Shown piece after piece: positions 1,806 to 59,637 of a stretch of 64,000 nucleotides of DNA. Position 1 is the first letter of the stretch; each line of letters begins with the position of its first letter. The stretch lies in IMG/VR virus record IMGVR_UViG_3300009130_001466, positions 1 to 64,000 of that record; one strand, 5' to 3'. Position numbers and translations under genes: made by a program. The stretch is from a virus. The notes under the pieces were generated by a model, which had not been told where the DNA came from, did not search any database, and was given only the letters and a program-made list of their open reading frames with translations.

Positions 1806-1810
1806 AATTT

Positions 1811-1838
1811 ATTATAAATTTAATTTAAAAAGTGTAAA
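1811..1838. promoter_or_regulatory. overlapping divergent promoters between two operons
   Basis: Minus strand: TTTACA (1833-1838), 16-nt spacer, TATAAT (1811-1816), 5 nt, then the ATG at 1805. Plus strand: AAGTGTAA with GTGTAA at 1832-1837, 8 nt, then the ATG at 1846. The plus-strand motif and the minus-strand -35 are the same bases read on opposite strands, so the two start sites may exclude each other. Confidence 0.6.
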
Positions 1839-1845
1839 CTTAAAT

Positions 1846-12438: not shown

Positions 12439-12832
12439 ATGATTTTACTTCTTTTATGTCTGAATTTGTTATTTGATTAATTTTGTTTTTGATATTAAAA
12501 CGTTCGTCGTTTGTGTAATAAACATCTCTTGCAAGTCGAATAAATACTGCACCAAAATCTTTGTTTCGTTCACATTCTCTGATTTGATCTTCAATCTTCC
12601 ATAACCCTAGATTGATTTGATACAGATCCGCTTTTAAAGCGCAAAGATCTGCTCTGGAAAAGTTAAAACCAAGCGCTGGATTAATCAAATCTGCAAATTT
12701 TTTATTTAATTCAACTCTTTCATTTTTAACTTCTTGTAGCTTCTCTACATCTTTAATCATTGACGATTTGATTTCAAGGATTGTTAGTTTATCAAGAAGC
12801 TCACCTACTGATATAGGGATATTAATTTTCAT
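12422..12832 (-). CDS. DUF6165 family protein
   Basis: 136 residues, all-helical. It opens with ISVGELLDKLTILEIKSSMI and continues NLGLWKIEDQIRECERNKDF and RLARDVYYTNDERFNIKNKIN, the recognisable core of DUF6165, a family found beside glycosyltransferases in bacteria and phages; function is not known to me. The gene overlaps both neighbours, by 11 bp with the upstream glycosyltransferase and 17 bp with the GT9 C-terminal gene, and appears to sit exactly where a GT9 domain is interrupted. Length is normal for the family, so the gene looks complete. Confidence 0.85.
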   Translation of the reverse strand: MKINIPISVGELLDKLTILEIKSSMIKDVEKLQEVKNERVELNKKFADLINPALGFNFSRADLCALKADLYQINLGLWKIEDQIRECERNKDFGAVFIRLARDVYYTNDERFNIKNKINQITNSDIKEVKSYESYS

Positions 12833-14510
12833 ATAATTCGAACTGTGTTTTGTCTTGACCGTTATGGTGGTAATTATGGAAGCGCTGAGTCCCGTAGTGC
12901 GGCAAAAACGCTATATCAAAAAATCCTTTATGGCCTTGTTTGCCCTCTAGAAAATGCAAGTTATCAATTTCTTGGGAGTATGGCAGTATTTTGTAAACCG
13001 CTGGATGGTCTTCTATATAATCAAAGAATTGAGATTTGGTAAAAACATAAATGTCATGAGAGGGGTAAAGCTCTTTAAGGTTATGCATTAATGAATTAAC
13101 CCATAAAACATCTCCAGCGGATTCTGGCATAAGAACGGCAATTCGACTTCCTTCATCTAGTAGATCTTCTATATTTATTCCTTGTTTTTCTTCTTTCCCC
13201 CAATCAAAGTCATAATCAACGTCTGGCATTGCATCTAGAATCTTTTCGAGCTTCTTGCCTACGGCTTCTGTTGAGTAGTTATCTATAGTCCATTGTCGGC
13301 CTTTTTTACCCATCTGAATGCGTTTGTTTTCATCCATTTGCCAAACTTTTTTAAGCTGTTTTGCTATGCTTGATGGATAAGTAGAAGCTTTAATAAACTG
13401 GGTTCCTGGTTCTCTGTATTCCGACCAATCAAGGGCGAAACTCCCAGATTCGGTTGTGGAAGAATCCTCGCCGCATGAATAATTTGTTACAAGGGTAACA
13501 AGTTCAGTCATCTTCGCTTCAAAAATTGGAATTTCCATGCCGCCGCTTGTAAAAGGGTGGCAATAAACATCCATAAGATTATAAACCTCATTAAGCTGTT
13601 GTTCATTAACTCCTGCTTTTGTGTTTGTTGTATTGAGGGATTTTTCAGTCCCGCAAAAACGACATTTTTGTTCTTGGCCTGTAAACGGGCGAACTTCATA
13701 TTGGCCGCAAGCAGTGCAATAATAAGTGGTTAGAATGTCATCTTTATTTAATCCTTTTTCTTCAATAAGCCTTGGAATATCCCAACCCTCAGACCAATGG
13801 GTGTGTAAAAGCAGTTTTGCTTTAGGGCAATCTTTTTTAAATATTTTAAAACCTTCCATCAGATTTGGAACGCTTTTTCTTAATTGATTTCTAAATACAA
13901 AACCAATAATGAACTCATCTGAAAGGCCTAATTTTTTTCTAAGTCCTTCCCGTTCGGAATTTGAAAAACGGTAAAAATCACCTGTATCAACACTTCCATG
14001 GAGAGTGTCAACATGATCGTGGCCCATTTCTTTTAAATCTCTTTCTGCAAAAGACGCCCAGCTATAAAAGTTTTTTGTTTTAAGTGCAGCCTCTACGGCT
14101 TGTGGTAAAATTGGTTGACTATCTAATGTAGTCCAAATCATATGATTGATTTTATTCCACCACGGCTTTTCCCAATAGCCACCAAAGGCCCAAATATCTT
14201 CGCAGCCTATGTAGATATCTGGCTTATATTCTTTGATTGCTAAATCAATAGTTTCCGCTCCATATCCAGCAGCACGACCTCTTTGTGGGTCTTGGTTTAA
14301 TTGTCGAATAATTGATGGATCGTTTGGTAGGGAACCTTGAGCCCTCCAGGGTCTTAATTTTAATGACGCATCATTCCATTGCATTCCATTCGCGAATTCA
14401 ATAATTTCATACTTGCCAGTTTTATAAAGATGACGAAGAATGTTTTTTGCGTTTTTACCAAAGCCTGTAAAAGCTTTTGCAGAATTTGAATGAAAAAGAA
14501 TCCGCTTCAT
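12822..14510 (-). CDS. GT4-like glycosyltransferase with zinc ribbon, fused to GT9 N-terminal half
   Basis: 562 residues. Residues 1-440 are a GT-B glycosyltransferase: N-terminal FHSNSAKAFTGFGKNAKNIL, then FIIGFVFRNQLRKSVPNLMEGF, and the donor-side HPFTSGGMEIPIFEAK. A CxxC-x17-CxxC zinc ribbon (CTAC and CRFC) is inserted at about 277-300. Residues 455-562 start afresh as a GT9 N-terminal Rossmann half (RIAVLMPESAGDVLWVNSLM, then FDIAFLPH) and stop before the acceptor half, which lies two genes downstream. Start overlaps the previous stop (TAATG). Probable role: adding sugar to a phage or host surface glycan. Donor and acceptor are unknown. Confidence 0.8.
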   Translation of the reverse strand: MKRILFHSNSAKAFTGFGKNAKNILRHLYKTGKYEIIEFANGMQWNDASLKLRPWRAQGSLPNDPSIIRQLNQDPQRGRAAGYGAETIDLAIKEYKPDIYIGCEDIWAFGGYWEKPWWNKINHMIWTTLDSQPILPQAVEAALKTKNFYSWASFAERDLKEMGHDHVDTLHGSVDTGDFYRFSNSEREGLRKKLGLSDEFIIGFVFRNQLRKSVPNLMEGFKIFKKDCPKAKLLLHTHWSEGWDIPRLIEEKGLNKDDILTTYYCTACGQYEVRPFTGQEQKCRFCGTEKSLNTTNTKAGVNEQQLNEVYNLMDVYCHPFTSGGMEIPIFEAKMTELVTLVTNYSCGEDSSTTESGSFALDWSEYREPGTQFIKASTYPSSIAKQLKKVWQMDENKRIQMGKKGRQWTIDNYSTEAVGKKLEKILDAMPDVDYDFDWGKEEKQGINIEDLLDEGSRIAVLMPESAGDVLWVNSLMHNLKELYPSHDIYVFTKSQFFDYIEDHPAVYKILPYSQEIDNLHFLEGKQGHKGFFDIAFLPHYGTQRFHNYHHNGQDKTQFELYEN

Positions 14511-28097: not shown

Positions 28098-28450
28098 TTT
28101 AATAAATCTTTTGTATTCTTTGGTTTATTATCACTAGAAACGTAATCTTTTCCAGTCTTTTCTCCTAAAATAATAGTGTCATACTTAGACAGGTCAACCT
28201 TAAAGTTAAAGTTTCTCCATTTTTTGTCCATAGTTTCCTTCAGTTCTTTAGACACAAGGTAAGCGAGACTGTCATACTTCTTGGGGAAGGTAACAATTTC
28301 TAAAAATTCCAAAGAATATCTAGACTCAAGATCCTTCAGGAGTTTCATTTCCCTAGCCCAAAAGAATCGCTTTTGGGCTTTGGGAACATCAATAAGCCTT
28401 CCTATGGTAAGTTGTCGCCTTTTATGTGGCGTTAATTTCTTTGAAGTCAT
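28094..28450 (-). CDS. hypothetical protein upstream of recA
   Basis: 118 residues, basic, predicted alpha/beta: KLTPHKRRQLTIGRLIDV, FFWAREMKLLKDLESRYS, EIVTFPKKYDSLAYLVS, then a lysine-rich tail. No family recognised. It overlaps the end of the GMD gene by 29 bp and recA by 4 bp, so it is translated in coupling with recA; a recombination-accessory role, such as a mediator, is a guess from position only. Confidence 0.65.
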   Translation of the reverse strand: MTSKKLTPHKRRQLTIGRLIDVPKAQKRFFWAREMKLLKDLESRYSLEFLEIVTFPKKYDSLAYLVSKELKETMDKKWRNFNFKVDLSKYDTIILGEKTGKDYVSSDNKPKNTKDLLK

Positions 28451-29471
28451 GTTCGCACATTCTGCACACTAATGATTCAAAGTCAACCTTTTTCTTCCAG
28501 CCTAATTCTTCTTCTGCCTCAGAGGGGTCCCCAAGGAGCAAATCGACCTCTGCGCGGCGATAAAAACCAGGATTCACTTTCATTAGAGTGATATCTACGG
28601 GGACTTCCCCTATTAATTTATAAACTTCATCAACACCCTCGCCAGACCAATAACCTTGGATGCCAGCATTATCAAAAGCAAGTTCGACAAACTCTCTTAC
28701 AGCGTGAGCTTCTCCAGAGGCTAGTAGATAATCTTTGGGACTGTCTTGATTCAACATTAGCCAAACAGCTTCTACAAAATCTTCTGCGTGGCTCCAGTCT
28801 CTCTTGGCGTCAACATTGCCAAGTTCAAGTGGCTTAAAATGTCTATCGCCGACCTGCAAGGCTTTTGCGATTCGTGCTACATTTTTTGTTATTTTTCGTG
28901 TTACAAATTCTTCGCCACGACGTTCTGATTCATGATTAAATAAGTAGCCTTGAAGAGCGTACAAATCATAAGAGTCGCGCCACACCTTTACAATCTGTCT
29001 CGCGGCAACCTTAGACGCTCCATAAGGGCTTCTTGGTCTTGCTGGGTGCTTGAGGTCTTGTGGGGTGTAAGCTACATCACCAAACTCTTCAGATGATCCT
29101 GCATTATAGTAGCGGCAGCTTGGGCAAATCTTACGAATCGCTTCAAGTTGGCGCATGACGCCAAGAGCATTTGTGTCGAAATGATTTACGGGCATGTGCC
29201 AACTATTGCCTACAAAAGAGTTTGCGGCAAAATTAATAAAATAATCTGGCTTAATATTTTGAACTGTAGTGAAAATACTGTGTTCATCGGTTAAGTCCAT
29301 TTCAATAAGCTCAAAACGATCTGAATCAATGTGTTCGATGTTTTTGTGATTTGGCACGCTGAGTCTACGAATAGCTCCGTAAATCTTGTGATCTGTATTC
29401 GCCAAAAGGTAATCGACCATATATGAGCCGACTTGACCCGTTACTCCTGTTACTATTACTTTTTTAATCAT
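28422..29471 (-). CDS. gmd: GDP-mannose 4,6-dehydratase
   Basis: 349 residues, a full-length short-chain dehydrogenase/reductase. Landmarks: VTGVTGQVGSYMVDYLL (NAD(P) loop), NFAANSFVGNSWHMP, GSSEEFG (Ser and Glu of the active site), RSPYGASKVAARQ (Tyr-x3-Lys), LFNHESERRGEEFVTRKIT, LGNVDAKRDWSHAEDFVEA and FYRRAEVDLLLGDPSEAEEELGW. This set is specific to GMD. It makes GDP-4-keto-6-deoxymannose, precursor of fucose, rhamnose or perosamine for surface polysaccharide. GC content and codon use are higher than in the adjacent cassette genes, suggesting a recent bacterial origin. Confidence 0.93.
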   Translation of the reverse strand: MIKKVIVTGVTGQVGSYMVDYLLANTDHKIYGAIRRLSVPNHKNIEHIDSDRFELIEMDLTDEHSIFTTVQNIKPDYFINFAANSFVGNSWHMPVNHFDTNALGVMRQLEAIRKICPSCRYYNAGSSEEFGDVAYTPQDLKHPARPRSPYGASKVAARQIVKVWRDSYDLYALQGYLFNHESERRGEEFVTRKITKNVARIAKALQVGDRHFKPLELGNVDAKRDWSHAEDFVEAVWLMLNQDSPKDYLLASGEAHAVREFVELAFDNAGIQGYWSGEGVDEVYKLIGEVPVDITLMKVNPGFYRRAEVDLLLGDPSEAEEELGWKKKVDFESLVCRMCEHDFKEINAT

Positions 29472-29832
29472 TGTTTTCTAAAAATTTTAAAGTGTTTTCC
29501 CAATCTTTGAACCTGTACCCCCTGTCATCTATATAAATAAATGATCTTGGTTTTTCTGCGGTAACATCTGAAATGTATGGACTGTATCCATGCTTATCCA
29601 ACCAATCACACACTAACTCTTTGCCTGTTTTGTTGTTTATTAGTGGTCTTTCTGTTTTTGCTTTGGCTGTAAATATGACTATTGTGTATTTTTTATTTAA
29701 TTTTTTAATAGCTTCTAGCGAGCCCTCTACTGGATCGTCATACACGGTCCCGTCGTAAAACCCTTTGGAGCATTTGTGTATTACACCATCAAAGTCTATA
29801 GATACTGTTTTATTTTCTTGATCCTCGAACAT
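29464..29832 (-). CDS. HAD-like phosphatase
   Basis: 122 residues. HAD motifs: VSIDFDGVIHK (DxD nucleophile), VIFTAK (Thr motif II), a Lys near TAEKPRSF and FIYIDDRGYRF (acidic motif IV). The compact size without a cap domain is as in the phage and bacterial proteins found in sugar-nucleotide clusters that dephosphorylate sugar phosphates. It overlaps GMD and the dehydrogenase gene, so it is part of the sugar cassette. Substrate not known. Confidence 0.82.
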   Translation of the reverse strand: MFEDQENKTVSIDFDGVIHKCSKGFYDGTVYDDPVEGSLEAIKKLNKKYTIVIFTAKAKTERPLINNKTGKELVCDWLDKHGYSPYISDVTAEKPRSFIYIDDRGYRFKDWENTLKFLENND

Positions 29833-30679
29833 AAGAGATTATATTTTCTATGGATTCTTTTTCCATCTTTTTTCTAGATTCTTCTGAAAAGCTTGCTACG
29901 TGAGGCGTGGCAAAAATATTGGGAAGTTGTAATAATTTTTTATTTGTAGTCGGCTCTTCTTCGAAGACATCCAGGGCGGCGCTAGCCAAAGGCGTTTCTT
30001 GTAAAAATTTAAAAAGATCTTCTTCGTTAAAGATAGAGCCTCTTGATGTATTAATTAATACAACATTTTTTTTCATTTTTTTAAAATCCTTGTGAGTTAT
30101 TTTATCTTGAATTTCTGGTATGTGAAAAGTTATAATATCAGATTTTTTGAAAACGGTTTCTAGTTCAAGATAATTATTTTCATAGAACGGGTCATGGATT
30201 ATCACATTTTTAGGATTAAATGACTGTATTTTGGACTTGACCAATCTGCCGATGCGACCGTAGCCGACGATTCCAATACTTAATTCGGTTAGATCTTTGC
30301 ATAGATGCTTTTCCCAGTTATATACATCTTGTTTATATAACTTTTTAATCATACATAAGATTAAAGAAACTGTAAATTCAGCAACGGAGCTGCTTGGCGC
30401 AGATGGAGTATTTAATATTTTTATTCCTCTTTTTTTGCAGGCTTTGTTATCTATAGAAGAGGTTCCCACACCAACTCTAGATATAACCTTCAGGTTTGGG
30501 CAAAGATCCAATTCTTCTTCCCCGTATTTTTCAGTGCCAGCAATTATGCATTCTGGATTATATTTAGAGAGTATATTTTTTATTTCTTCTTGTGTGTGCT
30601 TTTTTGTGTCGTTTTTATAAACGACATTTAAATTCGAAAAATCTGCATAAAAGGGGAATGTTGTTATAATTGTTTTCAT
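29810..30679 (-). CDS. D-isomer-specific 2-hydroxyacid dehydrogenase
   Basis: 289 residues. The fold is SerA/GyaR-like: PNLKVISRVGVGTSSID, SVAEFTVSLIL, IGIVGYGRIGRLVKSKI (NAD loop), INTSRGSIFNEEDL (catalytic Arg), ALDVFEEEPT (Glu) and ATPHVASFS (catalytic His). I chose the ATG at 30679, which overlaps the CMP-sugar synthetase stop as ATGA; an in-frame start 33 nt upstream is less likely. In sugar cassettes such enzymes can supply or recycle acid intermediates, but the substrate is unknown. Confidence 0.87.
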   Translation of the reverse strand: MKTIITTFPFYADFSNLNVVYKNDTKKHTQEEIKNILSKYNPECIIAGTEKYGEEELDLCPNLKVISRVGVGTSSIDNKACKKRGIKILNTPSAPSSSVAEFTVSLILCMIKKLYKQDVYNWEKHLCKDLTELSIGIVGYGRIGRLVKSKIQSFNPKNVIIHDPFYENNYLELETVFKKSDIITFHIPEIQDKITHKDFKKMKKNVVLINTSRGSIFNEEDLFKFLQETPLASAALDVFEEEPTTNKKLLQLPNIFATPHVASFSEESRKKMEKESIENIISYVRGSRK

Positions 30680-31296
30680 TTTAAATCTTTCTGCCAGTCT
30701 ATATCGACGCATTCTTCACCAGTAAGTTCATAAAAAAATGGCTTATGTCCAATTCTACACCTGCACTTTAGTAGAGCTTCTTTCGTTATTCCGTATAAGC
30801 CCGTTGTCTCTTCGAGTATTGGTTTGGAGTCTTGGCTTCTAGGTAAAACGGACGGTCTATAAGTTACGGGAATATTGTTGTACCAAAACCATCCAAAATG
30901 TTTTTTAACTGTTAGGATGGAATCATATTTTTTTTGATTTTTAACCAAAGACTCTACGCAATTTTTTATTGAATCTGGTTTTAAGTTTGGAGCAGTAGCG
31001 AATAACTGAAAATAATAGTCACAGTCTACTAAGGATTGGTGATGATTTAGTAAATCATTTCCGTTTGCAGTATCCAAAGATAATTCTGGTTTTCTTGTTA
31101 TTAATTTACAATTTTTAGAAAGAGCAAATTCTTCTATTTCCTTTGAGTCTGTATCTATGTAAATATGATCGAATGAATTTGATTCAATGCTAGCATTAAT
31201 TATATGAGTATATAGCTTCTTTCCGTTGAAAATTAAAAAATTTTTATCTTTAATTCTTTCGCTGTAAGATTTTATTGGTATAAAGCAATTTATCAT
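30676..31296 (-). CDS. CMP-N-acylneuraminate cytidylyltransferase-like protein
   Basis: 206 residues. The N-terminus CFIPIKSYSERIKDKNFLIF matches the CTP-binding start of CMP-sialic/CMP-KDO synthetases (IPARxxSxRxxxKN). It continues HIYIDTDSKEIEEFA, NGNDLLNHH, YYFQLFATAPNLKPDSI (the TSP-like xATxPxL motif) and CVDIDWQKDL, the conserved metal-binding end. It activates a nonulosonic acid with CTP. In the cassette it stands between WavE-like and dehydrogenase genes. The exact sugar (sialic, legionaminic, pseudaminic) cannot be told. Confidence 0.85.
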   Translation of the reverse strand: MINCFIPIKSYSERIKDKNFLIFNGKKLYTHIINASIESNSFDHIYIDTDSKEIEEFALSKNCKLITRKPELSLDTANGNDLLNHHQSLVDCDYYFQLFATAPNLKPDSIKNCVESLVKNQKKYDSILTVKKHFGWFWYNNIPVTYRPSVLPRSQDSKPILEETTGLYGITKEALLKCRCRIGHKPFFYELTGEECVDIDWQKDLK

Positions 31297-32078
31297 ATTT
31301 CGTCAATAGAGTTAGGGTGCATTGGGTTTTTTGTAAACCAATCTTGATCAACTCCTCTATAATAAGGTTGATCTTTATTGTGTCTAGAGGAATTTGCACT
31401 AAATTTAAAATCGCCAAGCTCGGAAATAGGTACAATGTCGAAGCATTTTTTCATATTTTCTTTGGATTCTTGTAGGGTTGCTTCTTTTTTTAGAATAATT
31501 TCACAAGAAGTTTTACCAAATATTGATTCGGGGCGAGGCTTAAAAAAATCTTTATTCGAATCAAAATAAACCAATTCGGTATTTTCTTTTTTGAAGCCAA
31601 AGTTGTGAGAACTTTCGCATATACGTGCACATTTTTTATAAATATCTATGAGCGTTTTTGTTTTTGAAAGAATTAAATGATCTGACGGGTGGTACTTATT
31701 ATCAATATCTCTTTGTGACATTATATTGGTTGTCACTATTTTATCATCTTGTAGTTTGTTTATGAGTGAATCTAGGGTTGAAAAGCTTTCATCTGATCTT
31801 GTTTTGATAGAATATTTTTTAGTAGACAGGCTTAAACCATTTAAAGTAGATAAGCATTGAAAATAAAAATTACCATAATTATATTCTTCTTTTATTGATG
31901 GAAGTGGGGAAACTAAAGTTTTAATATTTTTGTATTGAGAAAGGTCACAGCTAAAGGGTTTGTCGCTCCATGTTGACACAATCACCTCTGAAAATTGACA
32001 ATAATAATCAAGATTATTTAAAGAAATTTCACTTATGGGGCCTTGAATTATTATTGAAATATCTTCTTTGCTTATCAT
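31293..32078 (-). CDS. WavE-family LPS synthesis glycosyltransferase
   Basis: 261 residues. DISIIIQGPISE at the start, EVIVSTWSD, then TLNGLSLSTKKYSIKTRSDES follow the WavE signature (xxVxQGP..., xxSTW, ...YxLKxRxD). WavE proteins are involved in lipopolysaccharide core synthesis in Vibrio and others. Here it overlaps the SemiSWEET-like gene and the CMP-sugar synthetase by 4 bp each, so the four proteins are coupled. Likely to add or modify a surface sugar. Confidence 0.83.
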   Translation of the reverse strand: MISKEDISIIIQGPISEISLNNLDYYCQFSEVIVSTWSDKPFSCDLSQYKNIKTLVSPLPSIKEEYNYGNFYFQCLSTLNGLSLSTKKYSIKTRSDESFSTLDSLINKLQDDKIVTTNIMSQRDIDNKYHPSDHLILSKTKTLIDIYKKCARICESSHNFGFKKENTELVYFDSNKDFFKPRPESIFGKTSCEIILKKEATLQESKENMKKCFDIVPISELGDFKFSANSSRHNKDQPYYRGVDQDWFTKNPMHPNSIDEI

Positions 32079-45743: not shown

Positions 45744-48700
45744 TTATACAGCGGAGGTATTTATTTCTCTCCAATTTGATCCATTGTGAATATACATATT
45801 GTCGCCACTATACATAATCTGGCCACCTACGCCTGGGGTACTTGCGCCAGTCCATAAAGGCACATTCATATAAGTTCCTTGGTCAAAATCTAAGAAAAGG
45901 GTGTCTTCTCCCTTGGATTGTGTTTGGGTTATTTTACTGTCTTTTATTACGGACCCAGCTATATGCTGAGAATCTATATTATCTCCAAAAACAAAAGTGT
46001 TTTGCCCGCTTGATTCTATATCTTCTCCAAAGAAAGTAGATTTGTTTGAATTTTGTACATTTATTCGATCTCCGTATATAAAAACATTACTAGAACTCTT
46101 AACATTATTATTAAAGCCCTTAATTGATAAATTTGAAACAAAACCGCCAACGCCCGACAGTGTATTTCCGTACCCTAAAATATCACAATGCCTAAAGTCA
46201 ACAAAAGTACTAGTGTCACCAAATTTAACAAAAGTAATATCTTCCCCAAGAATCCTTGAATGCTCTACTCGCACCCTTCCAGTTAAATTAATATTGGAGC
46301 CCAAAATATCTGAGTAATCTAAATCATGATCTATGTTAATATTATTCCCTTGAATTTTGGAATCGGCTGCATTGCTTATATCGCTTTGGATTAAATTAAA
46401 AACAGAACAGCGATTAATGCCACTCAACTCTGAATCGTTAACATAGTTTAAATTAGACGACAATATGGATCTTGCATTAGAATTTATTAAATTATTTGCG
46501 GAAGAACTCGATAATCCAAGAACATTACAGTTACCAAGATTCGATATTGATGAATCGGTTACGCTAGATAAGTTTGAAGCGTAAATATTTTTGATTTCTG
46601 AGTAGAATGCACCAGAAACCGTAGATTCGTCGTGGTTGAAACAAAAAACGTCTAGAGAAGCCCTGAAAATATTATCGGATGAATTCTGACTACTTCGAGT
46701 AAAATTATGACCACCAATAACGAACAAATTAGAACAAAAATCAAGTTTATTCTTTTTCCCAAATATATAATTTGAATCTTCTCGTGTATTCTGAGTGTTG
46801 AATGCCGCCCCAGTAATACTATTTTGCTCGCCTATAATAAGTGAGTAGACTGAAGGTTCTTCACCTACAATTTCGTTTTCGTCTCCAAAAATTAAATTAT
46901 TACGACCAGACAAAGTATTTTCAGCACCATTTATAATCGTACTTTTCCGACCATAAATAGTATTATTTAGCCCATTTAAAATTGTAGAGTAGGTGTTGTT
47001 AAGGACGTCTGTTGCATCTAACTCCGATACTTCAGTTAATATTTTATTTCTGTTTCCATTTAAAATGGTTGAATTGGCGCTTTTGATTCTTTCCCCGCTT
47101 TGTGATATTTCGTTTCCGATACCATTGAAGATTGAAGAATAATGCGCCGCTTTAACTAAAGATCCAAGACTGTTGGAAATATTACAAAATATTGGATAAT
47201 TATCCGAATCTTGAAAGCTGCTAACATTAGGGCCCCTATAGCCGCTTTCTATGCTTGAATTCATAGAATTGCTTATTGATAGAAGTTGTCCATGTGTGCT
47301 GCACCTAACTGAAGAAAAAATGGAAGAGAGACTTTCCCAAGTCTGCCTTCTGTCATTAAAATCACGAAGTAAATCGCTTTCTTCCATACCGCTTAATTCT
47401 GGTATTACAAAATCGTGTCCAAAATTAAAAGTATTTCTAAAACCGAATTCGCCATACAGGGAATGGGTCACTGCATGTATATCATTTCTTTTCCCATTTA
47501 ATATAAAACCGCCTATTCCGTCTACACTATTCTCTTCTCCTCCGAATATATGAGAATGTTTGTTTTGCACAGCTTCCAAATTTGAGCCGTTAGCGAAGAC
47601 GCCCTCTATAACGAATCTCTCACCAGCCTTGTTTGAACCTATTACATTGTTTTCTCCATTAATTATCGTGTTGTAATTTTTATAGTCTCTGTTGAAATAG
47701 TAGAATCCTTTATCTAAATTTTCTGAAGACGACCCAGTTAAAAAACTCAAATTAATTGTATTACCTGTGCCGCCAAATATGTAAGAATTGTGCCCAGAAG
47801 CTTTATTGTTTATGCCCGCTACTATTGAGTTCGCTCCAGCTAACTCATTTCCAGATCCATTTAAAATAGTAGAAAAATCAGACTGAACTTTATTTTCGAT
47901 TCCATTCAGAATAGACGCATAAACAGGGGCATCAAAAACCTTTTGTTCAAACCAATAACCTGAAATTCTCTCAAAACCATCTGTGGCCGACCAAGTATAC
48001 CAAGGTTGAGGATGAATATCGCTTTCATAAATTTCGCTATACAGCAGGTCTTGAAATGGAAACTTAGTAAACTGAGCGGCAAAACCCACTTCTCTGATAA
48101 TTCCAGTGTCTGCGGTTGTAAAACTAATTGTCACGTCGGTATTTGTATCGATCGTAGAACCATCTGGAGTTAAAATAACTCCATTATCTGACTCAATAAT
48201 AGAATTTCCAGTTCCACCAGCAATAAATGAATCACTAGAGTCAATAATATTATTACCTCGGCCAGCCGTTATAGAACATCTTTCAGAATCTTCCACAACG
48301 TTTATTCTGCCAGCAGAAATGCAAGAATCTAAAGAATCTTTGACATCATTGTTTCTTCCCGCAAGAATTGCTACACCAGTTCCAGTTAAATTATTATCCT
48401 GTCCACCAAAAAGGGTAGCATAAAGACCTGATGCGGTGTTATTTTGCCCGCCAACTAAAATAGTCTCGTCACCAAATACATCATTATTTGAACCCCCAAC
48501 TAATACGCTTCTGTCTCCACTTATTGAATTATTATTGCCACCTACAAGGGAAGACTCAGTTCCAATAATATAATTAGATCTACCTCCCACTAAAGAGGAA
48601 TGAGTTGAGTTTTGTATTTTGTTTGTTTTCCCTCCGAGTAAAACAGAAGAAGTGGAACCAGTTATAGTATTATCATCTCCTACTCCAACTAAAGATCCAG

Positions 48701-51011
48701 TTGATGACGCTATTACATTCGTCGAGCCAGCGGCAATGGAAGATTGGTTAGAGTTTTGTAGTAAATTTCCAGTTCCCGCTCCAACCGAGGAGTCTTGAGA
48801 ATTTATTAAAGTATTACTTGATCCCGCTGTAACCGAGGAGTCTTGAGAATTTGTAAACGTATTATCTTTGCCCGCACCAACGTGGGACCTTTGAGAATTT
48901 TGCATAAAATTCCCAGTTCCCGCTCCGATTGAAGAATCGTCCGAAAGTTTTATGGAGTTTTCTCTACCAGCGACGACCGTGGAAGCCACGCCGCTCACCT
49001 TATTATTTTCGCCAGCGAAAAGCGTGACAAATTTTCCAGAAGCGGTATTGGACTCGCCGCCCATCAAAACGATTCCGTCGCCCACTAACTGATTTCCGCT
49101 ACCCCCGACAAGAACGCTCTTATCTCCGTGAAGGGTATTATTGCTACCTCCGAGCAGAGAAGAGGAAGAGCCAGATACTACATTTTCTATCCCGCCGAGC
49201 AAGGAAGAGTAGCTTCCAGTTCTCAATTCATTATCTCTGCCGCCTAAGATAGAAGCGGAAGAAGTGTTTTCTCCGACCAGATTGTTTCTGCCGCCGAGTA
49301 TCGAAGAGTTGTTTCCGATAGCTTGATTTAAGAAACCCCCTCCAAGAATGGAGTCCTCTCCGCTCACAATATTTTGAAGCCCCGCCAATATCGCTGCGTT
49401 TTCGACATAAACCTTGTTGCGGTTTCCTCCACCGATGAAAGAAGAATTTCCGCTTATGTAATTTTCGTCGCCAGCGGCAATGGAAGATCGGTTAGAGTTT
49501 TGAATGTAGTTTCCAGTTCCAGCGGCAATCGAAGAATCGCTTGAGCCGCTAATTTTATTAAAACCGCCCCCTACAATTGCAGAATTAGCAGAACCACTCA
49601 GTTTATTTTGATTGCCAGCCCCCAGGAAAGATTCATTTGAACTTATAATTCTATTTCCAGTTCCAGCAGAACTTGAAGAATTATTAGACCCTGATAAAAC
49701 ATTTTCTTCGCCAGCTAAAATAGAAGACCCAGTTGAATCAGTCAAAGAATGGCTATCACCAGCACCTATCCACGAACTACTAGAATTTAAAACATTATTT
49801 CCAGAGCCAGCTCCTATGAAAGAACTGGGAGAGTTAGAGAATATATTTTCAGACCCAGCACCTATGAAAGAATTATCCGACGTATTTAAATGATTTTGGG
49901 TTCCAGCCCCCAGTAAACTATCACTTGAACCAGAAATTATATTAGATAGCCCCGCACCTAAAGTTGATCTTGGTGAATTTTTTACTAAATTCAAATTACC
50001 ACCGACAAGAATAGCATTATCCGAAACTAAATTGTTTCCACTTCCTCCAACTATAACACTTTTTTGCCCAGAAATGTTGTTGTTTGATCCACCTACAAGA
50101 GAACTTAAAGATCCACTTATTTCGTTGTTTTCTCCGCCAAGAAGAGAAGAGTGGGTTGAATTTTTTACAATATTTTCCTTGCCTCCAACTATTGTAGAAT
50201 AATTTCCCGTTTTTATTTCATTATTATCTCCGCCTAAAATAGCAGATTTCTGACCGTCTATAGAATTTATATGACCACCAGCAATTACAGAACCTTCGCC
50301 AGTAATTGTGTTATTTGTACCCGCTATTATCCCACCTAAATTAGAATTTACTTGATTCCCATTGCCTCCAGCAATTGCAGATCGATCAGAATTTACTATA
50401 TTATTTTGTCCAGCACCTATGAAAGATTTATTGCCAGAAATTTGGTTTTGGCTGCCAGCCGATATAGAGGATTGATTACCTATCAAATCATTTCCAAGTC
50501 CACCATTTACAGTAGATGAATTTCCAGTAATATGATTTCCAGCACCAGCGCCGATAAAAGAAAAGTTCCCACTTAGAGAGTTATGAGTGCCAGCGGAGAT
50601 AAACGAGTCATCCCCTATTAAAGAATTATATGTGCCAACACCAATGGCGGAATAATCCCCACTTAGAAAATTATTATTGCCAGCTAATATAACAGAATAA
50701 TTCCCACTTAAAGTATTTACGTTTCCAGCAAATATAACAGATCCTTGCGAATTTTGAGCCATTTGAAGCTGACCCTCCCCCAAACCAGAAAGCGAATTAT
50801 TTTTATAAACAAGCTCTAAACCTTGATAAGTTGGTATAGAATTGAAATTCTTAACTCCAGATATGTTCTGATCGCCAGTTTTTAATACTATTTTGTTTCC
50901 ATCCCAATCTATATCAGATCCATCTCCATTTGTGACTATCGCAGTGTTTGGATCTGAATTCAGTATATAGATATAACTAGAATCTATTCTTTTTCCGTAA
51001 AGGTCTGCCAT
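45744..51011 (-). CDS. giant beta-roll tail fibre protein
   Basis: About 1755 residues. The N-terminus (MADLYGKRIDSSYIYILNS) is an attachment segment. Residues 95-970 are about 40 short units such as GNHITGNSSTVNGG and NSSFIGGGNRNKV, the pattern of YadA-like left-handed beta-rolls, built into trimers. The units fall into three longer super-repeats of 200-300 residues (starting near residues 255, 590 and 790). Less regular roll units fill the rest, to a C-terminal domain with YMNVPLWTGASTPGVGG. The ATG at 51011 is chosen by the upstream motif; an in-frame start 27 nt earlier overlaps the neighbour. Likely a long side fibre. Confidence 0.85.
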   Translation of the reverse strand: MADLYGKRIDSSYIYILNSDPNTAIVTNGDGSDIDWDGNKIVLKTGDQNISGVKNFNSIPTYQGLELVYKNNSLSGLGEGQLQMAQNSQGSVIFAGNVNTLSGNYSVILAGNNNFLSGDYSAIGVGTYNSLIGDDSFISAGTHNSLSGNFSFIGAGAGNHITGNSSTVNGGLGNDLIGNQSSISAGSQNQISGNKSFIGAGQNNIVNSDRSAIAGGNGNQVNSNLGGIIAGTNNTITGEGSVIAGGHINSIDGQKSAILGGDNNEIKTGNYSTIVGGKENIVKNSTHSSLLGGENNEISGSLSSLVGGSNNNISGQKSVIVGGSGNNLVSDNAILVGGNLNLVKNSPRSTLGAGLSNIISGSSDSLLGAGTQNHLNTSDNSFIGAGSENIFSNSPSSFIGAGSGNNVLNSSSSWIGAGDSHSLTDSTGSSILAGEENVLSGSNNSSSSAGTGNRIISSNESFLGAGNQNKLSGSANSAIVGGGFNKISGSSDSSIAAGTGNYIQNSNRSSIAAGDENYISGNSSFIGGGNRNKVYVENAAILAGLQNIVSGEDSILGGGFLNQAIGNNSSILGGRNNLVGENTSSASILGGRDNELRTGSYSSLLGGIENVVSGSSSSLLGGSNNTLHGDKSVLVGGSGNQLVGDGIVLMGGESNTASGKFVTLFAGENNKVSGVASTVVAGRENSIKLSDDSSIGAGTGNFMQNSQRSHVGAGKDNTFTNSQDSSVTAGSSNTLINSQDSSVGAGTGNLLQNSNQSSIAAGSTNVIASSTGSLVGVGDDNTITGSTSSVLLGGKTNKIQNSTHSSLVGGRSNYIIGTESSLVGGNNNSISGDRSVLVGGSNNDVFGDETILVGGQNNTASGLYATLFGGQDNNLTGTGVAILAGRNNDVKDSLDSCISAGRINVVEDSERCSITAGRGNNIIDSSDSFIAGGTGNSIIESDNGVILTPDGSTIDTNTDVTISFTTADTGIIREVGFAAQFTKFPFQDLLYSEIYESDIHPQPWYTWSATDGFERISGYWFEQKVFDAPVYASILNGIENKVQSDFSTILNGSGNELAGANSIVAGINNKASGHNSYIFGGTGNTINLSFLTGSSSENLDKGFYYFNRDYKNYNTIINGENNVIGSNKAGERFVIEGVFANGSNLEAVQNKHSHIFGGEENSVDGIGGFILNGKRNDIHAVTHSLYGEFGFRNTFNFGHDFVIPELSGMEESDLLRDFNDRRQTWESLSSIFSSVRCSTHGQLLSISNSMNSSIESGYRGPNVSSFQDSDNYPIFCNISNSLGSLVKAAHYSSIFNGIGNEISQSGERIKSANSTILNGNRNKILTEVSELDATDVLNNTYSTILNGLNNTIYGRKSTIINGAENTLSGRNNLIFGDENEIVGEEPSVYSLIIGEQNSITGAAFNTQNTREDSNYIFGKKNKLDFCSNLFVIGGHNFTRSSQNSSDNIFRASLDVFCFNHDESTVSGAFYSEIKNIYASNLSSVTDSSISNLGNCNVLGLSSSSANNLINSNARSILSSNLNYVNDSELSGINRCSVFNLIQSDISNAADSKIQGNNINIDHDLDYSDILGSNINLTGRVRVEHSRILGEDITFVKFGDTSTFVDFRHCDILGYGNTLSGVGGFVSNLSIKGFNNNVKSSSNVFIYGDRINVQNSNKSTFFGEDIESSGQNTFVFGDNIDSQHIAGSVIKDSKITQTQSKGEDTLFLDFDQGTYMNVPLWTGASTPGVGGQIMYSGDNMYIHNGSNWREINTSAV

Positions 51012-51019
51012 AATCTTAT

Positions 51020-51025
51020 TTACAC
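51020..51025 (-). promoter_or_regulatory. GTGTAA start-linked motif of the giant fibre gene
   Basis: Minus strand: GTG TAA is the last codon and stop of the upstream gene; ATAAGATT (8 nt) follows, then the ATG at 51011. Confidence 0.48.
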
Positions 51026-52144
51026 AAAACTGTTCCAAATAAAGTCATTATGACTGAAAATAGTTCCGTTGTTCTTATTCCAAAGGTAAACAGAGGCGCC
51101 AGTTAATATATTTATATTATTTGCGCCAAAAATTAAATTTGCATCTTCTGATAATTCTGATGAAATAGAGTTACTGAAGTTTTTGGACTGTAAACTTGCT
51201 CCAGAAATATTGACCATGAAGTTTTTGCCATTTATCTTGCCACCACTTATGCTTATATAATAAGTTTCTGAATTTTTTAAAAAATTTAATAAAGAATGAT
51301 CGGTTTCTATGTCTGAAACTTTATTTTTTAAAGAAATTTTTCCTAAAAACGGAGGAGTCGCCACCCTTCCCATTGGAAAATATTTATCTATAGAATTTAT
51401 TCTTTTTCTGTTAAAATCGAGATTTATGTCGAAAGATTGAATATTATCTGGCTTAATCAAGAAAGAATCTTCTGTTCCTATCCCGCTTATTTTTACATAA
51501 GTATTGTATCCAGCAGTCCACTCTCCCATAAAGTTGGACTCAATTAATTCATCGTATATGCCAGTAAACACAAAATTACCAACTGGTTGTTGATCTCCAG
51601 TTAAATTAACAGATGGAGACTTGCCACTGCTTAATAAATACTGCCCATCGCTACCACTATATTCTTGCGCAATTATATTACTTCCGATGTATGAATAGTC
51701 ACTGGTTAAAATACCACCAACTTTTTGATTTATTTTTACAGAGTCAAGAAAACAATTTCCTATTGAAAGCGAACTCTCATATTGACTAAGAACAGTTCTT
51801 TCTTCGTCTCTACCAACAATAGAATAAAAGTTTTTCCCCCGATTTAAATCTTCACGAAGTTGCCCTCCAGTAAAAACATCTTCAAACAATGTTTCAAAAT
51901 TTTCAAGTATAGATAAGTTTACATTGACATCTGGGGCTTGATTTGAATAAATAAAATTTTTCTTTTTTGATCCCACTGAACCCTTACTACTAACTAAATT
52001 AGATCCAAAATCAAAATCAAAACTTTGCACCCCTGGCAAGAAGAACATACCGCTTCCGTTATTCATTTCTTGCTGATGAAACTCATCCTCGCTATAAAAC
52101 AAGCAAACATCCGCGTATCTATTTACAAATCTAGACGCACTCAT
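51020..52144 (-). CDS. tail-tube-like paralogue B
   Basis: 374 residues. It aligns with the neighbouring gene at 52144-53181 through NRYADVCLFYS, GVQSFDFDFGSNL, PDVNVNLSILENFETLFEDVF, VNLTGDQ, SFLIKPDNIQSFDINLDFNRK and SIDKYFPMGR. The first 110 residues also resemble the partial gene at 63669. Such repeats of a tail-tube fold can form collars or end caps at the tail tip. Start overlaps the upstream stop (TAATG) with GGGAGGG just before it. Molecular role inferred from location between gpM-like and fibre genes. Confidence 0.72.
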   Translation of the reverse strand: MSASRFVNRYADVCLFYSEDEFHQQEMNNGSGMFFLPGVQSFDFDFGSNLVSSKGSVGSKKKNFIYSNQAPDVNVNLSILENFETLFEDVFTGGQLREDLNRGKNFYSIVGRDEERTVLSQYESSLSIGNCFLDSVKINQKVGGILTSDYSYIGSNIIAQEYSGSDGQYLLSSGKSPSVNLTGDQQPVGNFVFTGIYDELIESNFMGEWTAGYNTYVKISGIGTEDSFLIKPDNIQSFDINLDFNRKRINSIDKYFPMGRVATPPFLGKISLKNKVSDIETDHSLLNFLKNSETYYISISGGKINGKNFMVNISGASLQSKNFSNSISSELSEDANLIFGANNINILTGASVYLWNKNNGTIFSHNDFIWNSFV

Positions 52145-54216: not shown

Positions 54217-57200
54217 TTATGACTTATATAAATAGTTTAGAGTTCCCCCACTTCTAGACTCTTCTTGTATCACTGTCGTGACTGCCGATCTGATTCTAGA
54301 AGCAAACTCTCTTTGGTTCTCTGAAGAGCCCTGGCCGCCTTCTTGACTAACTTTGCCATCTTGTATATTGAAAGTAAAATCTGAGTTATTTGTTATTTCG
54401 CCTCCGCCAAGTGCATTACTTCCAGCCTCTGAAGCAACAGGAGAAACTGCTCCTCCATTTTGAAATCCTTGCATTGGGAGCATACCTTTATTTAGGCTAG
54501 ACAGAAAGTCGGTTCCATATTTATCTACCGCAGATTTCTTAACTACAAATTCTCCAGGGGTTAGCATAGCTGGTACTGTATCTGTTCCTCTACCAACTGA
54601 TCCGCCAGCATTAAAGAAACTGAATAAACTACCCAAGCCACCACTCAAACCACCGAGAAGGCTGCTAAATATTCCACCAATTCCGCTCCCTATTCCACCT
54701 AGTCCGCCGAGAAGGCTACTAAATATTCCGCCGCCACCTGCGCCACCACCAAATAAACCTACGAGACTGTCTTTTAGTCCACCAAATATTCCACCAAGTT
54801 TATCTTTTAAACCTCCGAATAAATCGCCAAATCCGCTTTTTATTTTACTGAAAAAGCCCTCCTGCCCTTCTCCTTCTTTTCCAGTTATACCCTCTAAAGC
54901 TTTTTCTGCTCCGCTAGTGGCTCCTCCACTTATGGCATTAGCTACATCTTGAACAAATAGTGGATTTGTTGGGCTGCTTCCTAGAGCGCCGCCACCTTTT
55001 TTACCTCCACCAAATAAGTCACCAAAAAACCCGCCAACTTTTGAGAAGAGTCCTCCGCCGCTAGCAGCTGCACCGCTAGCAGCTGCACCGCTAGCAGCTG
55101 CGCCGCCAGAAGCTGCGCCGCCAGCAGCGCCAGAAGCTCCCCCTCCGCCGAAAAGACCACCAATAGATGAAAATATATTTTTTTGACCACCGCCCCCAGC
55201 GCCGCCAAAAACTCCAGTTGGGCCTCCACTAAATAAAGTGTTTGTAAATTGATCTGCGGCTTGTTGTAGAAACGCATCCCTAATGAACCCTAAGAAATTT
55301 CTTCCAGCATCGGATAAAGCCTCATCTAAATCTTTGGCCCCGCTTACAGCATCTTTCATAGCGGAACCCAAATTATCACTAAATTGAAGTGGTATATTTT
55401 CACCAAGCTCATCTTTAAAAAAATCTATATCGTCTTTAACTTGTCCCAATCCTTTGCTAAATCCATCGGCAAATCCTTGCGGTTTATTAAGGTTATTTAT
55501 TTCTTGTTGTAATTTTATTTCTTCTAGCTTGTCGTCCAATACTCTTTGCTGAATTTCTGCCTTAGCTACAGCAAGGTCAAAATCGGTTTTGGCTTTTTTA
55601 GATAGCTCTATACCAGCCTCGGCAAGCCCCTCTTCAATTGAAAGTAAGCTAGCCCCTGCCTTAACCTGGCCCTCTATAAACTCTTTCTGCTTTTCAGAAA
55701 AAACACTGGCATCTGTGATTGATTTTACGTATTCTTCTGTGATTTTGAATTCTTCTTTAGCTCTTTCTATGAGAAATTCCCCCATAGCTATCTCATTTTC
55801 TAGACCCACTTTCCTTACTGTTGTTACAGCTTTAGCTAAATCAAGTTCTTTGCCTCTTATCGCGGATAAAGCTCCTTCTTGAAATATAGTCGCTCCTATT
55901 TCTCCAGGCTTCGTAGGCTCTAACTGCTTTGTTGTGTCAAATCCACCAGCCGCAAATCTTCCTTCGCCTATGCTTTCTTTAAAGCTTTTTTTTGCTGCAG
56001 ATCCAATTACCCCTTTCTCTCCAAAACCAGATGCAGCTATTAATGCTGCATCGGCGGCTTTTTTGGCGGCGGCATCAATCTGCTCAATAGCTTTGATCAT
56101 GTTTTCCGCAAACAAAACTGCATTAAACTCCTTCTCGACTGTAGTTCTTGTTGTCCCACGCCGTGGATTGAAAAATTCCTTCTCAACATCTGTGCTGCTC
56201 GCATCAATGATCTTTTGCAACTCGGTTGTGCTCCCAACTTTTGCCAAAGACGCACTCAATGTTTCTTTATCTTTTACTCCTCCAAAAAATCCTTTATTAA
56301 TTCCTTTTAATCCTTTTACTTGTTTTTCAAGTATATCACCTATATCTGCATCCGCTTCAACATTTAATTTTTTTGCAAGTTCAGCCTTTTCACTTGCTCT
56401 TTTTATCTCCGCAACGAAAGAAGACTTCAAAGCGGCGGAAGCTTCTATTGATCCAGCTGATAACTCTCCCAGATCAATATTTTTAAGTGATTCGTTTAGT
56501 TTTTCGAACCCTGTTTTTGTTTTTGTTAATTCTAGAACAAGCGGAGCCACCACTGCTCCCACAGCTACAGCAGTACCAATTCCAGGCAAAGCTCTACCAA
56601 CTCCAGCTATGCCTCTACCCAGGCCACCCCTAGCTCCCCTCAGTTTGCCCTCTGAACCCCTCATTATTCCACCTGTTCTCGGACTCCGAAAGGTAGCTAA
56701 CTCTGTTCCAAAACTAGACAACTTAGCCCCAACATTTTCAAGCGGCCCTTTCAATAAGCTTAATCCACTTAATAATGATGCGGCTAAACTCACCTCACTG
56801 ATAAACTTCCCAAGACCACTTTCGGCTCCACTAAAAGCAGAGCTTAAGAAAAATAAAGCAGTAGACGCTCCTAGTGCAGCATTCGAAAATTTATCTACAG
56901 ACTCTGTAGCTCCTGCCGTTCCTCTTTTTGCAAAATTAGGTATCCTGCCAGTTGGCTCATCTCTTGTATTAGTGACGGCAAGACCTTGTGGATTTTGAGA
57001 ATTGCGAAGCTTCCCGCTTTGATTTATTCTTATTTGATTGATTGGAAGGCCAGCAGCTTGCTCTCTTGCAACTGCTTCATCCAAAGCTCCACGAGCAAAA
57101 TTTGGGATATAACCTCCAGCACTTCTTCTGTTAAATTCTGCTGTAACGGCTTTTCTACTAGGTCCAGCAACTCTGCTTTTTTGTAGTTCCCCTAAACCAG

Positions 57201-59637
57201 TCTTGGAAACACCCTTGCCTCCAGCGCCAAATTTTTCCATCTTATTGGCCATACTGTTGTATATACGAGTATTACCAGAGATTTTAGCCTCTATAAATCT
57301 AGCCTGGTCAGAGATTCCAGGATATAATTTTGCTATATCGTTTCTGGCCGCACTACCAACAAAATCAAATGTAGCTGTTTGAGATAAATCATATTGCGGG
57401 CTTTTTAATATGGAGCTAATAGCGGCTTCATAAATTACACCAGCCAAAGACGATACAGATCCTCGGTTTCCCAGTTCGTTTATTTTCGTTGCGGCTGGTC
57501 TTCCTCCACTTATTTTTTTAGCTTCTAGATTAGCTAATCCTACACCAAATTTTCCGACAGATTTTACATAATCCTTCGTTTCTCTGCCTTTTATTTGCGC
57601 ATCATTATAGCCCAAAATTGGAAATTGATAACTTTTGCCAGTTTTTGATTTTCCTACAGCGAATTTGCCCAAATTTTTATCTGGAGTAATTAAAGCGAAT
57701 CTACGGTCTTGTATTGGAGCTGCTTGCCTCTTTGCAAAATTAGGAATAAATCCACTAGCCGCATTTATCTTTTTCGCCCCACTTGGAAGGCCCATCGACC
57801 TAACCATGTCTTGGTTAAATATAGCATCTCCGCCTCCAGCATAATTAGGAACAAAATATTCACTAGTGTTTGCGACCATTGTGCCACGTTTGCCGCCACC
57901 AAAAGCAAAATTAGGAATTGAAACAACTTTGGAGCTAGACGGGGCGCCACCAACACCACGAGAAACGTCACGAGCTTCGGCAGCAACATAACCATCAGAT
58001 GCTCTTCCTTTAGGGGTAACCCCTTTTGTCCCGCCACGCAGTCCAGCACCAAAAAGTCCAGGCGTTACAGTTGCAGCGGCTTTTTGAACCCTAGCGAGCG
58101 CGGCGGCTTGTTGGTTATAAATTTTTAGAAGTAATTGTTCTTGAGCTACCTTATTTCCTTCTAGGGCTAAAATCTCTCTTTGGATACTTTCATTTTGCAG
58201 CAGTGTCTGAAGGACGGACTGTTGAAGCGATTTTTGAGCCTCCGCAGCCTTGTTAATACCAAGCAGGCTTTTTAAGGAACTAGCTCCAAACTTTGCCAAG
58301 TCTACAAATAATTTTACAAATATAGCACTAATTAAAGCTAACCCTGGGCCAGTTAAAACGCCACCTATCCCCTTAACTATGCTTTGTGCGAATTTTGAAC
58401 CTATTGAATCTCCCTGCAATAAATCAGTAATCCCACTAACTACAGAAGAAAACACCTTTAAAATATCTTTCGCTGCATCAGTAAAACCCAATTCTCCAAC
58501 AACAGAAGAGAGTTTTTGCGCCCCAACTGTCAAATTATTTATCAATGCTTCTAGCGTATCATTTAATTGGGCGTTTTTTCTATCTAAGGCGCCAGCAGCT
58601 CCAGCGGAAACTTGAAGAGATTTTGCAAACTGACTTTGGCTAGAATTTAAATCTTCGACCAAACTAATTAAAATATCACGCTGGCGAACGCCAGCAACTT
58701 TTTGGATAATCTCTCCAGCCTCAACACTTTTTAAACCAAGCTTGTTGAGCTCTACTGCGAGTTCCTGAAAAAGAGGTATAGCGCTTCTTACATTACCTTC
58801 CACGTCTACAACATTTATTCCCAAGTCTTCAAGCGCGGCTAATGTATCAGTTCTGCCCAATCTAGCAAAAATGGTTTTAAAAGCATTACCAATAACAGCG
58901 CCGCCACGCTGAGTTCTTTCTTGCACGGTTGTAATGACACCTAAAAGCTCATCAAAAGATACGCCAGCTACACGAGCCGATGCGGAAGCTCGTTCAAGAC
59001 CGTTAATCAAATCCTCCGTAGACACAGCGAACTTTGTATCAACTTCGGCTAATTTATCCGCTATTTGAGCTACATTTAAACCAGCGCCTTCAAAACCCTT
59101 TATCGCTGCAGTCAAACCAGCTACAGCTTGTTGAGAATCAATACCAGCGACGCGAACTAATTTCAAAGAAGTTTCAACACGAGAAAGCGACTCTTCTACG
59201 CTTAAACCCTGACGAGCTAACTCTAAAGCGCCATCGGCCACCTGATCAAAAGATGTCGCTGTTTTTTGAGCTACAGCGAAAATACCATTACCAAATTGTT
59301 CTAATTCTTTTTGGGTCCCCCCTAAAATAGTATTAATTTTTGCAAAAGTAGCTTCTACTCTAATAGTGTTTTCTACTAGCGCCCCAAATGCTTGAGAAAG
59401 TTTATTAATAACAGCAACCGAAGCACCAAAAGCTAAAACACGAGCATTAGAAGCTTCTAATGATTTTTGGAATTCAGTGGCTTGCCCTGTTATTTTTCCA
59501 AGCGGGCGAGATAGCTTTTCAATGGATCGTGCCCCGCTTCCAAAATCAACTCCCTTAGCTTGAGTCTGTATTCTAGCTAAAGCCGCCTCAACCTTTCTTG
59601 TATTTGGTTCTAAATTTACTCCTACATTTACCGCCAT
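54217..59637 (-). CDS. tape measure protein with embedded nuclease-like domain
   Basis: 1806 residues. The N-terminal 350 residues are the TP901/PhageMin core (AQIADKLAEVDTKFAVSTED, RGGAVIGNAFKTIFARLGRT). A hydrophobic stretch (near 425-460) and later ones cross membranes during DNA entry. The C-terminus has GTDTVPAMLTPGEFVVKKSA. Residues 570-905 contain five IPNFA-type repeats (SIPNFAFGG, FVPNYAGG, FIPNFAKR, YIPNFARG, RIPNFAKR). Between the third and fourth lies a PD-(D/E)XK-like region: VIYEAA, TFDFVGSA and RFIEAKIS (near 732, 748 and 782). The tape measure sets tail length. Length predicts a tail longer than lambda's. Confidence 0.93.
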   Translation of the reverse strand: MAVNVGVNLEPNTRKVEAALARIQTQAKGVDFGSGARSIEKLSRPLGKITGQATEFQKSLEASNARVLAFGASVAVINKLSQAFGALVENTIRVEATFAKINTILGGTQKELEQFGNGIFAVAQKTATSFDQVADGALELARQGLSVEESLSRVETSLKLVRVAGIDSQQAVAGLTAAIKGFEGAGLNVAQIADKLAEVDTKFAVSTEDLINGLERASASARVAGVSFDELLGVITTVQERTQRGGAVIGNAFKTIFARLGRTDTLAALEDLGINVVDVEGNVRSAIPLFQELAVELNKLGLKSVEAGEIIQKVAGVRQRDILISLVEDLNSSQSQFAKSLQVSAGAAGALDRKNAQLNDTLEALINNLTVGAQKLSSVVGELGFTDAAKDILKVFSSVVSGITDLLQGDSIGSKFAQSIVKGIGGVLTGPGLALISAIFVKLFVDLAKFGASSLKSLLGINKAAEAQKSLQQSVLQTLLQNESIQREILALEGNKVAQEQLLLKIYNQQAAALARVQKAAATVTPGLFGAGLRGGTKGVTPKGRASDGYVAAEARDVSRGVGGAPSSSKVVSIPNFAFGGGKRGTMVANTSEYFVPNYAGGGDAIFNQDMVRSMGLPSGAKKINAASGFIPNFAKRQAAPIQDRRFALITPDKNLGKFAVGKSKTGKSYQFPILGYNDAQIKGRETKDYVKSVGKFGVGLANLEAKKISGGRPAATKINELGNRGSVSSLAGVIYEAAISSILKSPQYDLSQTATFDFVGSAARNDIAKLYPGISDQARFIEAKISGNTRIYNSMANKMEKFGAGGKGVSKTGLGELQKSRVAGPSRKAVTAEFNRRSAGGYIPNFARGALDEAVAREQAAGLPINQIRINQSGKLRNSQNPQGLAVTNTRDEPTGRIPNFAKRGTAGATESVDKFSNAALGASTALFFLSSAFSGAESGLGKFISEVSLAASLLSGLSLLKGPLENVGAKLSSFGTELATFRSPRTGGIMRGSEGKLRGARGGLGRGIAGVGRALPGIGTAVAVGAVVAPLVLELTKTKTGFEKLNESLKNIDLGELSAGSIEASAALKSSFVAEIKRASEKAELAKKLNVEADADIGDILEKQVKGLKGINKGFFGGVKDKETLSASLAKVGSTTELQKIIDASSTDVEKEFFNPRRGTTRTTVEKEFNAVLFAENMIKAIEQIDAAAKKAADAALIAASGFGEKGVIGSAAKKSFKESIGEGRFAAGGFDTTKQLEPTKPGEIGATIFQEGALSAIRGKELDLAKAVTTVRKVGLENEIAMGEFLIERAKEEFKITEEYVKSITDASVFSEKQKEFIEGQVKAGASLLSIEEGLAEAGIELSKKAKTDFDLAVAKAEIQQRVLDDKLEEIKLQQEINNLNKPQGFADGFSKGLGQVKDDIDFFKDELGENIPLQFSDNLGSAMKDAVSGAKDLDEALSDAGRNFLGFIRDAFLQQAADQFTNTLFSGGPTGVFGGAGGGGQKNIFSSIGGLFGGGGASGAAGGAASGGAAASGAAASGAAASGGGLFSKVGGFFGDLFGGGKKGGGALGSSPTNPLFVQDVANAISGGATSGAEKALEGITGKEGEGQEGFFSKIKSGFGDLFGGLKDKLGGIFGGLKDSLVGLFGGGAGGGGIFSSLLGGLGGIGSGIGGIFSSLLGGLSGGLGSLFSFFNAGGSVGRGTDTVPAMLTPGEFVVKKSAVDKYGTDFLSSLNKGMLPMQGFQNGGAVSPVASEAGSNALGGGEITNNSDFTFNIQDGKVSQEGGQGSSENQREFASRIRSAVTTVIQEESRSGGTLNYLYKS

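Follow-up and report, generated by a model that had tools for sequence, protein, structure and literature searches.

Tape measure proteins (TMPs) are usually viewed as rulers and DNA-passage proteins that carry, at most, a cell-wall enzyme, and MuF toxins sit at the C-terminus of a head-associated protein and are accompanied by immunity genes. We analysed a 64-kb window (positions 1 to 64,000, the first part of the 112.8-kb uncultured virus record IMGVR_UViG_3300009130_001466), and within it the TMP encoded at 54217-59637 on the minus strand, in which a nuclease-like domain is framed by short IPNFA-type repeats. The MuF polymorphic toxins of temperate phages (PMC5576092) are variable toxin domains borne by a phage protein, and this they have in common with the TMP studied here. 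In contrast, the cassette here is internal (aa 636-843 of 1806) rather than C-terminal, and no neighbouring gene, an adjacent immunity gene included, was seen to change with it. Polyvalent proteins of phages and conjugative elements, giant multidomain proteins predicted to be injected with the DNA, hold ADP-ribosyltransferase (ART), kinase, GNAT and ParB-type domains (Iyer et al. 2017, PMC5512222), all of which have counterparts, some of them putative, among the cassettes described below. The phage examples are, however, predicted to reside in the phage head, and tape measures are not mentioned in PMC5512222, whereas here the carrier is a TMP, a fixed peptide motif delimits the cassettes, and the majority contain a nuclease-like domain without a Pfam match. 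Contractile systems eject TMP-related proteins as effectors (PMC13277306), and those of the Sle1 type likewise have a functional domain that can be replaced and that a tail-like machine delivers; they belong to bacterial contractile injection systems of Actinobacteria and their functional domain is C-terminal, whereas the present case concerns internal cassettes in the TMP of an infectious phage.

Our analysis suggests that the injected TMP of this lambda-type siphovirus has a second role, as a modular carrier of effector domains. More generally, the TMPs of a widespread group of uncultured siphoviruses may form a polymorphic effector delivery platform. Enzyme cassettes (nuclease-like, ART, acetyltransferase, P-loop kinase-like and others) would be gained, stacked and swapped at G[FY][IV]PNFA linkers, unaccompanied by immunity genes, and would enter the cell together with the genome. 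We give this reading a probability of roughly 0.6.

The open reading frame (ORF) was confirmed from the window sequence and encodes 1,806 aa. Its PhageMin_Tail domain, its length, matches to many PHROG tape-measure families and its tail-gene context identify the predicted product as a TMP. Since it is accompanied in the window by lambda-type genes for J (E 2.5e-118), an L-type minor tail protein and an I-type assembly protein, the tail is assigned to the siphovirus type.

54217..59637, minus strand: TMP, 1806 aa (PF10145, E 1.5e-28, and PHROG TMP families)
58735..59274, minus strand: PhageMin_Tail domain, aa 122-301, within the conserved N-terminal scaffold (PF10145 match)

The original prediction described five IPNFA-type repeats in the middle of this protein. 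Five [IV]PN[FY]A motifs are indeed present, starting at aa 574, 596, 631, 844 and 899, the second reading VPNYA and not IPNFA; from composition, 0.0015 would be expected by chance, and no further copy occurs outside the TMP anywhere in the 112.8-kb record. The layout of repeats and insert is thereby confirmed.

57904..57918, minus strand: PNFA1, IPNFA, aa 574-578 (motif scan)
57838..57852, minus strand: PNFA2, VPNYA, aa 596-600 (motif scan)
57733..57747, minus strand: PNFA3, IPNFA, aa 631-635, 5' boundary of the exchanged cassette (motif scan and drop in identity)
57094..57108, minus strand: PNFA4, IPNFA, aa 844-848, 3' boundary of the exchanged cassette (motif scan and return of identity)
56929..56943, minus strand: PNFA5, IPNFA, aa 899-903, beyond which identity to close relatives drops again (motif scan)
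57733..57930, minus strand: conserved adapter block, aa 570-635, which holds PNFA1 and PNFA2 and ends in PNFA3 (71-88% identity in diverged TMPs)
56944..57093, minus strand: conserved 50-aa module NPxGLAVTNTRDEP, aa 849-898, between PNFA4 and PNFA5 (comparison of TMPs)

In other viral contigs the motif forms a fixed signature, A-[AS]-x-G-[FY]-[IV]-P-N-F-A (464 motif instances tabulated), and 111 of 134 motif-bearing ORFs match the N- or C-terminal part of the window TMP. Because the first scan of the collection selected on the PNFA motif, prevalence was taken from a scan with the adapter block, which itself contains PNFA1-3. The 50-aa module at 56944-57093 is highly conserved among TMPs although the segments on both sides of it are exchanged.

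The exchange has its boundaries at PNFA3 and PNFA4. Among 116 TMP pairs whose N-termini share at least 80% and whose inserts share less than 45% identity, mean identity falls at PNFA3 from 83% (30 aa before) to 9% (30 aa after), and returns at PNFA4 from 9% (27 aa before) to 82% (50 aa from PNFA4). Per 15 residues, close relatives share 67-94% up to PNFA3, mostly less than 50% in the insert, and 73-100% in the module that follows PNFA4. Scaffold and insert identities are nearly uncorrelated (Spearman rho 0.10, 64 TMPs): relative L130 has an N-terminus 91% identical to that of the window TMP and an insert 29% identical, while the inserts of L055 and L111, which are 39-40% identical to the window insert, belong to proteins whose N-termini are just 46-47% identical to the window's. 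In the pair L194 and L214 the N-termini are identical, and the DNA is 99.3% identical over 1.8 kb upstream of the cassette and 99.1% identical over 5.2 kb downstream in the fetched loci (96.7% over 6.4 kb in the whole contigs). The sole replacement in their 8.3-kb overlap is a 0.8-kb segment running from the PNFA3 codons to the PNFA4 codons, and the two domains are 22% identical. Since near-identical copies of both cassettes recur in other contigs (L192 for L194, L208 for L214), this swap is not an assembly chimera. Flanks are colinear over 5 kb upstream in L131/L133 and over 6.4 kb downstream in G001/G002. These sequence comparisons strongly support the idea, put forward in the original prediction, that the repeats mark where cargo domains are swapped.

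Sharp divergence between close relatives is also seen in the C-terminal half of the TMP after PNFA5 (54220-56925, minus strand; 51% identity with L130, 31% with L127), which is likely to be a second exchange region.

57109..57732, minus strand: exchanged cassette, aa 636-843 (identity profiles against relatives)
57220..57663, minus strand: nuclease-like domain with a PD-(D/E)XK-type signature, aa 659-806 (profile, alignment and AlphaFold models)
57427..57429, minus strand: putative catalytic E737 in a GxxFE helix (E or D in 104 of 105 relatives)
57364..57366, minus strand: putative catalytic D758 (D in 105 of 105)
57283..57291, minus strand: putative catalytic E783-A-K785, (D/E)xK (D/E in 105 of 105, K in 105 of 105)
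57241..57243, minus strand: K799, conserved K/Q in the next helix (K in 87 and Q in 17 of 104)

What lies between repeats 3 and 4 had been proposed to carry an active site of the PD-(D/E)XK type, and the residues invoked (Y736-E737, F757-D758-F759-V760-G761 and F781-I782-E783-A784-K785-I786-S787) were found there in that order. The conservation counts above come from a 105-row alignment of domain relatives that are 13-49% identical to its first row, and at this divergence the motif residues are near-invariant rather than freely varying; the equivalent of G733 is G in all 105. The pattern E...D...(D/E)xK...K/Q thus reads as a PD-(D/E)XK-type signature. In close pairs, dN/dS for the domain is mostly 0.03-0.3, which indicates purifying selection. 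An iterative profile search detects a related domain of about 150 aa in 74 of the 88 unique TMPs with the adapter block, so that the main slot mostly holds allelic variants of a single domain family, and in 165 of the 271 segments between motifs that are 95 aa or longer; most apparent profile-negatives still have, by eye, the G-x-x-F-E...D...(D/E)xK pattern.

AlphaFold2 models were obtained for the window domain (pLDDT 84, pTM 0.73, 68 sequences) and for a relative's domain (pLDDT 85, pTM 0.74, 105 sequences). The two agree in the succession of elements. N-terminal strands are followed by a long helix; the conserved E then lies on a helix, D on a short strand, (D/E)xK on another short strand that comes after an intervening helix, and K/Q on the helix after that. 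Known PD-(D/E)XK nucleases such as Mrr, Hjc and UPF0102 share with the domain the order G-x-x-[FY]-E ... D ... (D/E)xK ... K/Q, and it is in our view quite probably a nuclease of this superfamily, though membership is unproved.

In relatives, other cassettes are found at the same linkers. The TMPs of L222, L187 and L216 have N-termini 79-85% identical and combine the same blocks in differing numbers:

L222: PNFA, nuclease A, PNFA
L187: PNFA, P-loop domain, PNFA, nuclease B, PNFA
L216: PNFA, 131-aa domain, PNFA, P-loop domain, PNFA, nuclease A, PNFA

The P-loop domain of L216 is 87% identical to that of L187, and its nuclease A 92% identical to that of L222. Pfam further recognised GNAT acetyltransferase cassettes (best E 2.3e-7), P-loop cassettes (E 0.0006), and, in L142, an ART cassette of the polyvalent-protein class (ART-PolyVal, PF18760, E 1.5e-5, which is under the curated cut-off); matches to SNase (E 0.014) and ParB_N (E 0.006) are weak. 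Judged by sequence, several enzyme domains may thus be carried per polypeptide in relatives (ART-PolyVal in L142; P-loop and nuclease-like in L216), and the window TMP carries one enzyme-like domain. In the survey of related TMPs for different inserted domains, suggested with the original prediction, other domain types do occur at PNFA motifs, usually in extra slots, the main slot holding mostly alleles of one family. Kinase-like, HAD-like and several further ART-like cassettes were proposed from motifs recognised by eye, and these readings are unconfirmed.

About 19 unique P-loop cassettes (GPAGSGKST ... EIDILSGAARTKDGG) were noted, for example in L168 (6190-6663), L187, L216 and L223, repeatedly stacked ahead of a nuclease cassette; the family possibly represents a small-molecule or nucleotide kinase. 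On L142, a contig from a lake metagenome-assembled genome, a DUF7178 domain (E 4.3e-17) adjoins the ART-PolyVal cassette in a TMP-like ORF (1668-3098). Three contigs from metagenome-assembled genomes (Verrucomicrobiales, Flavobacteriaceae and a lake bacterium) give weak hints as to the hosts of these viruses.

How might such a carrier work? The conserved scaffold (N-terminus, adapter block and 50-aa module) would build and measure the tail, and the exchangeable cassette between the G[FY][IV]PNFA linkers would be the cargo, here most likely a metal-dependent DNase of the PD-(D/E)XK type. At tail ejection the TMP would exit the tube ahead of or with the DNA, bringing the domain into the cell; the lambda TMP is located near the inner-membrane injection site during genome entry (PMC13190303). 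Once inside, its target may be DNA of the host, of a plasmid or of a rival phage, or else a defence. Cassettes would change by recombination at PNFA-coding DNA, which would act as a permissive linker and at the same time supply a short homologous stretch. Strong diversification between colinear flanks without co-changing genes argues against a classical toxin-immunity pair, and suggests that the enzyme stays inactive as long as the tail has not ejected, or that the producing phage lacks its target.

Several observations weigh against the effector-carrier reading. No adjacent immunity gene changes with the cassette, which leaves the sparing of the producing cell and of the phage genome unexplained, and a folded domain of 17 kDa must fit, or unfold, inside the tail tube. 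As to the nuclease itself, Foldseek searches with both models against PDB and BFVD gave no match despite the confidence of the models, the canonical beta1 of the alpha-beta-beta-beta-alpha-beta core is not evident in the predicted secondary structure, and a helix is predicted between D and (D/E)xK, in all of which the domain differs from the known nucleases. Neither is there profile similarity to known nucleases in Pfam, PADLOC or HHalign: the insert matched no family in Pfam and PHROGs and nothing consistent in PADLOC, a PDB sequence search with the domain profile returned chance lectin matches only, and HHalign comparisons with Mrr_cat and UPF0102 alignments built from genomes were not significant, the UPF0102 motif columns being partly superposed. 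The proposed nuclease identity is supported by the signature residues; profile homology does not support it, and the fold is not confirmed.

The chief alternative is a selfish cassette of the homing type, whose nuclease would cut the TMP gene in a co-infecting phage with a different cassette; repair via the PNFA-coding homologies would then replace it, so that the domain would ensure its own spread and have no role on entry. In favour of this, nuclease-like alleles are swapped precisely between intact flanks, and homing endonuclease genes are known to interrupt phage TMP genes and to sit at exchange boundaries, with allelic replacement in otherwise unchanged phages (PMC10448857). Those, however, are HNH genes located in introns and removed by RNA splicing, whereas the domain here is translated in frame, is always present, and shares its boundaries with non-nuclease cargo. 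By its sequence it is neither intein nor intron, the frame being open and splice-junction residues lacking at the flanks; intein and empty-site ideas were rejected, as the slot is never empty and measures 198 aa or more in each of the 77 TMPs that have the downstream module. No degraded active site was seen among the 105 relatives. We therefore regard a homing-type role as unlikely.

Less probable still is a DNA-handling tail part, which would bind or trim the phage genome end, or grip DNA at ejection, and vary with genome ends or hosts. The TMP tip contacts DNA and the domain retains acidic and lysine residues, but L194 and L214, with DNA 99% identical, would have the same genome end and yet differ in domains that are 22% identical; moreover, ART, GNAT and P-loop cassettes do not fit such a role. 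The least credible alternative, an immune-evasion decoy in which a variable TMP surface or spacer is diversified under TMP-sensing defences such as SNIPE, enzymatic activity being unimportant, draws on the finding that SNIPE binds TMPs and that escapers map in the TMP (PMC13190303), but SNIPE-type escapers alter the scaffold and not the cassette, and the catalytic-type residues are invariant within an otherwise freely varying domain.

If TMPs do carry effectors, the tail would join head-packaged proteins and the MuF class as a third virion route for effectors that act from the first moment of infection, and the TMP would offer a defined cassette site together with a large natural stock of enzymes that can be exchanged. 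The question of what accompanies phage DNA into the cell, and of the reason for its rapid diversification, would become directly testable, and the peptide signature could be used to mine early-acting phage effectors and possible anti-defence proteins. The insert, the adapter, the module and the P-loop cassette had no credible tblastn match in 50,697 cultured phage records, and a literature search on IPNFA/PNFA motifs in phages gave nothing relevant. The papers searched contain no description of TMP cassettes; most subscription papers lay outside this search, so that an earlier description is possible.

Elsewhere in the window, genes resembling those for GDP-mannose dehydratase, CMP-sugar synthetase and glycosyltransferases were recognised by eye at 28422-32078 and 11317-14510 (both minus strand), and possibly serve surface or DNA glycosylation. 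Near the tail genes, 45744-51038 (minus strand) encodes a 1,764-aa protein made mostly of short GAGxxN/GGxxN-type repeats and resembling a trimeric adhesin head, which is likely to be a tail-fibre or adhesion protein.
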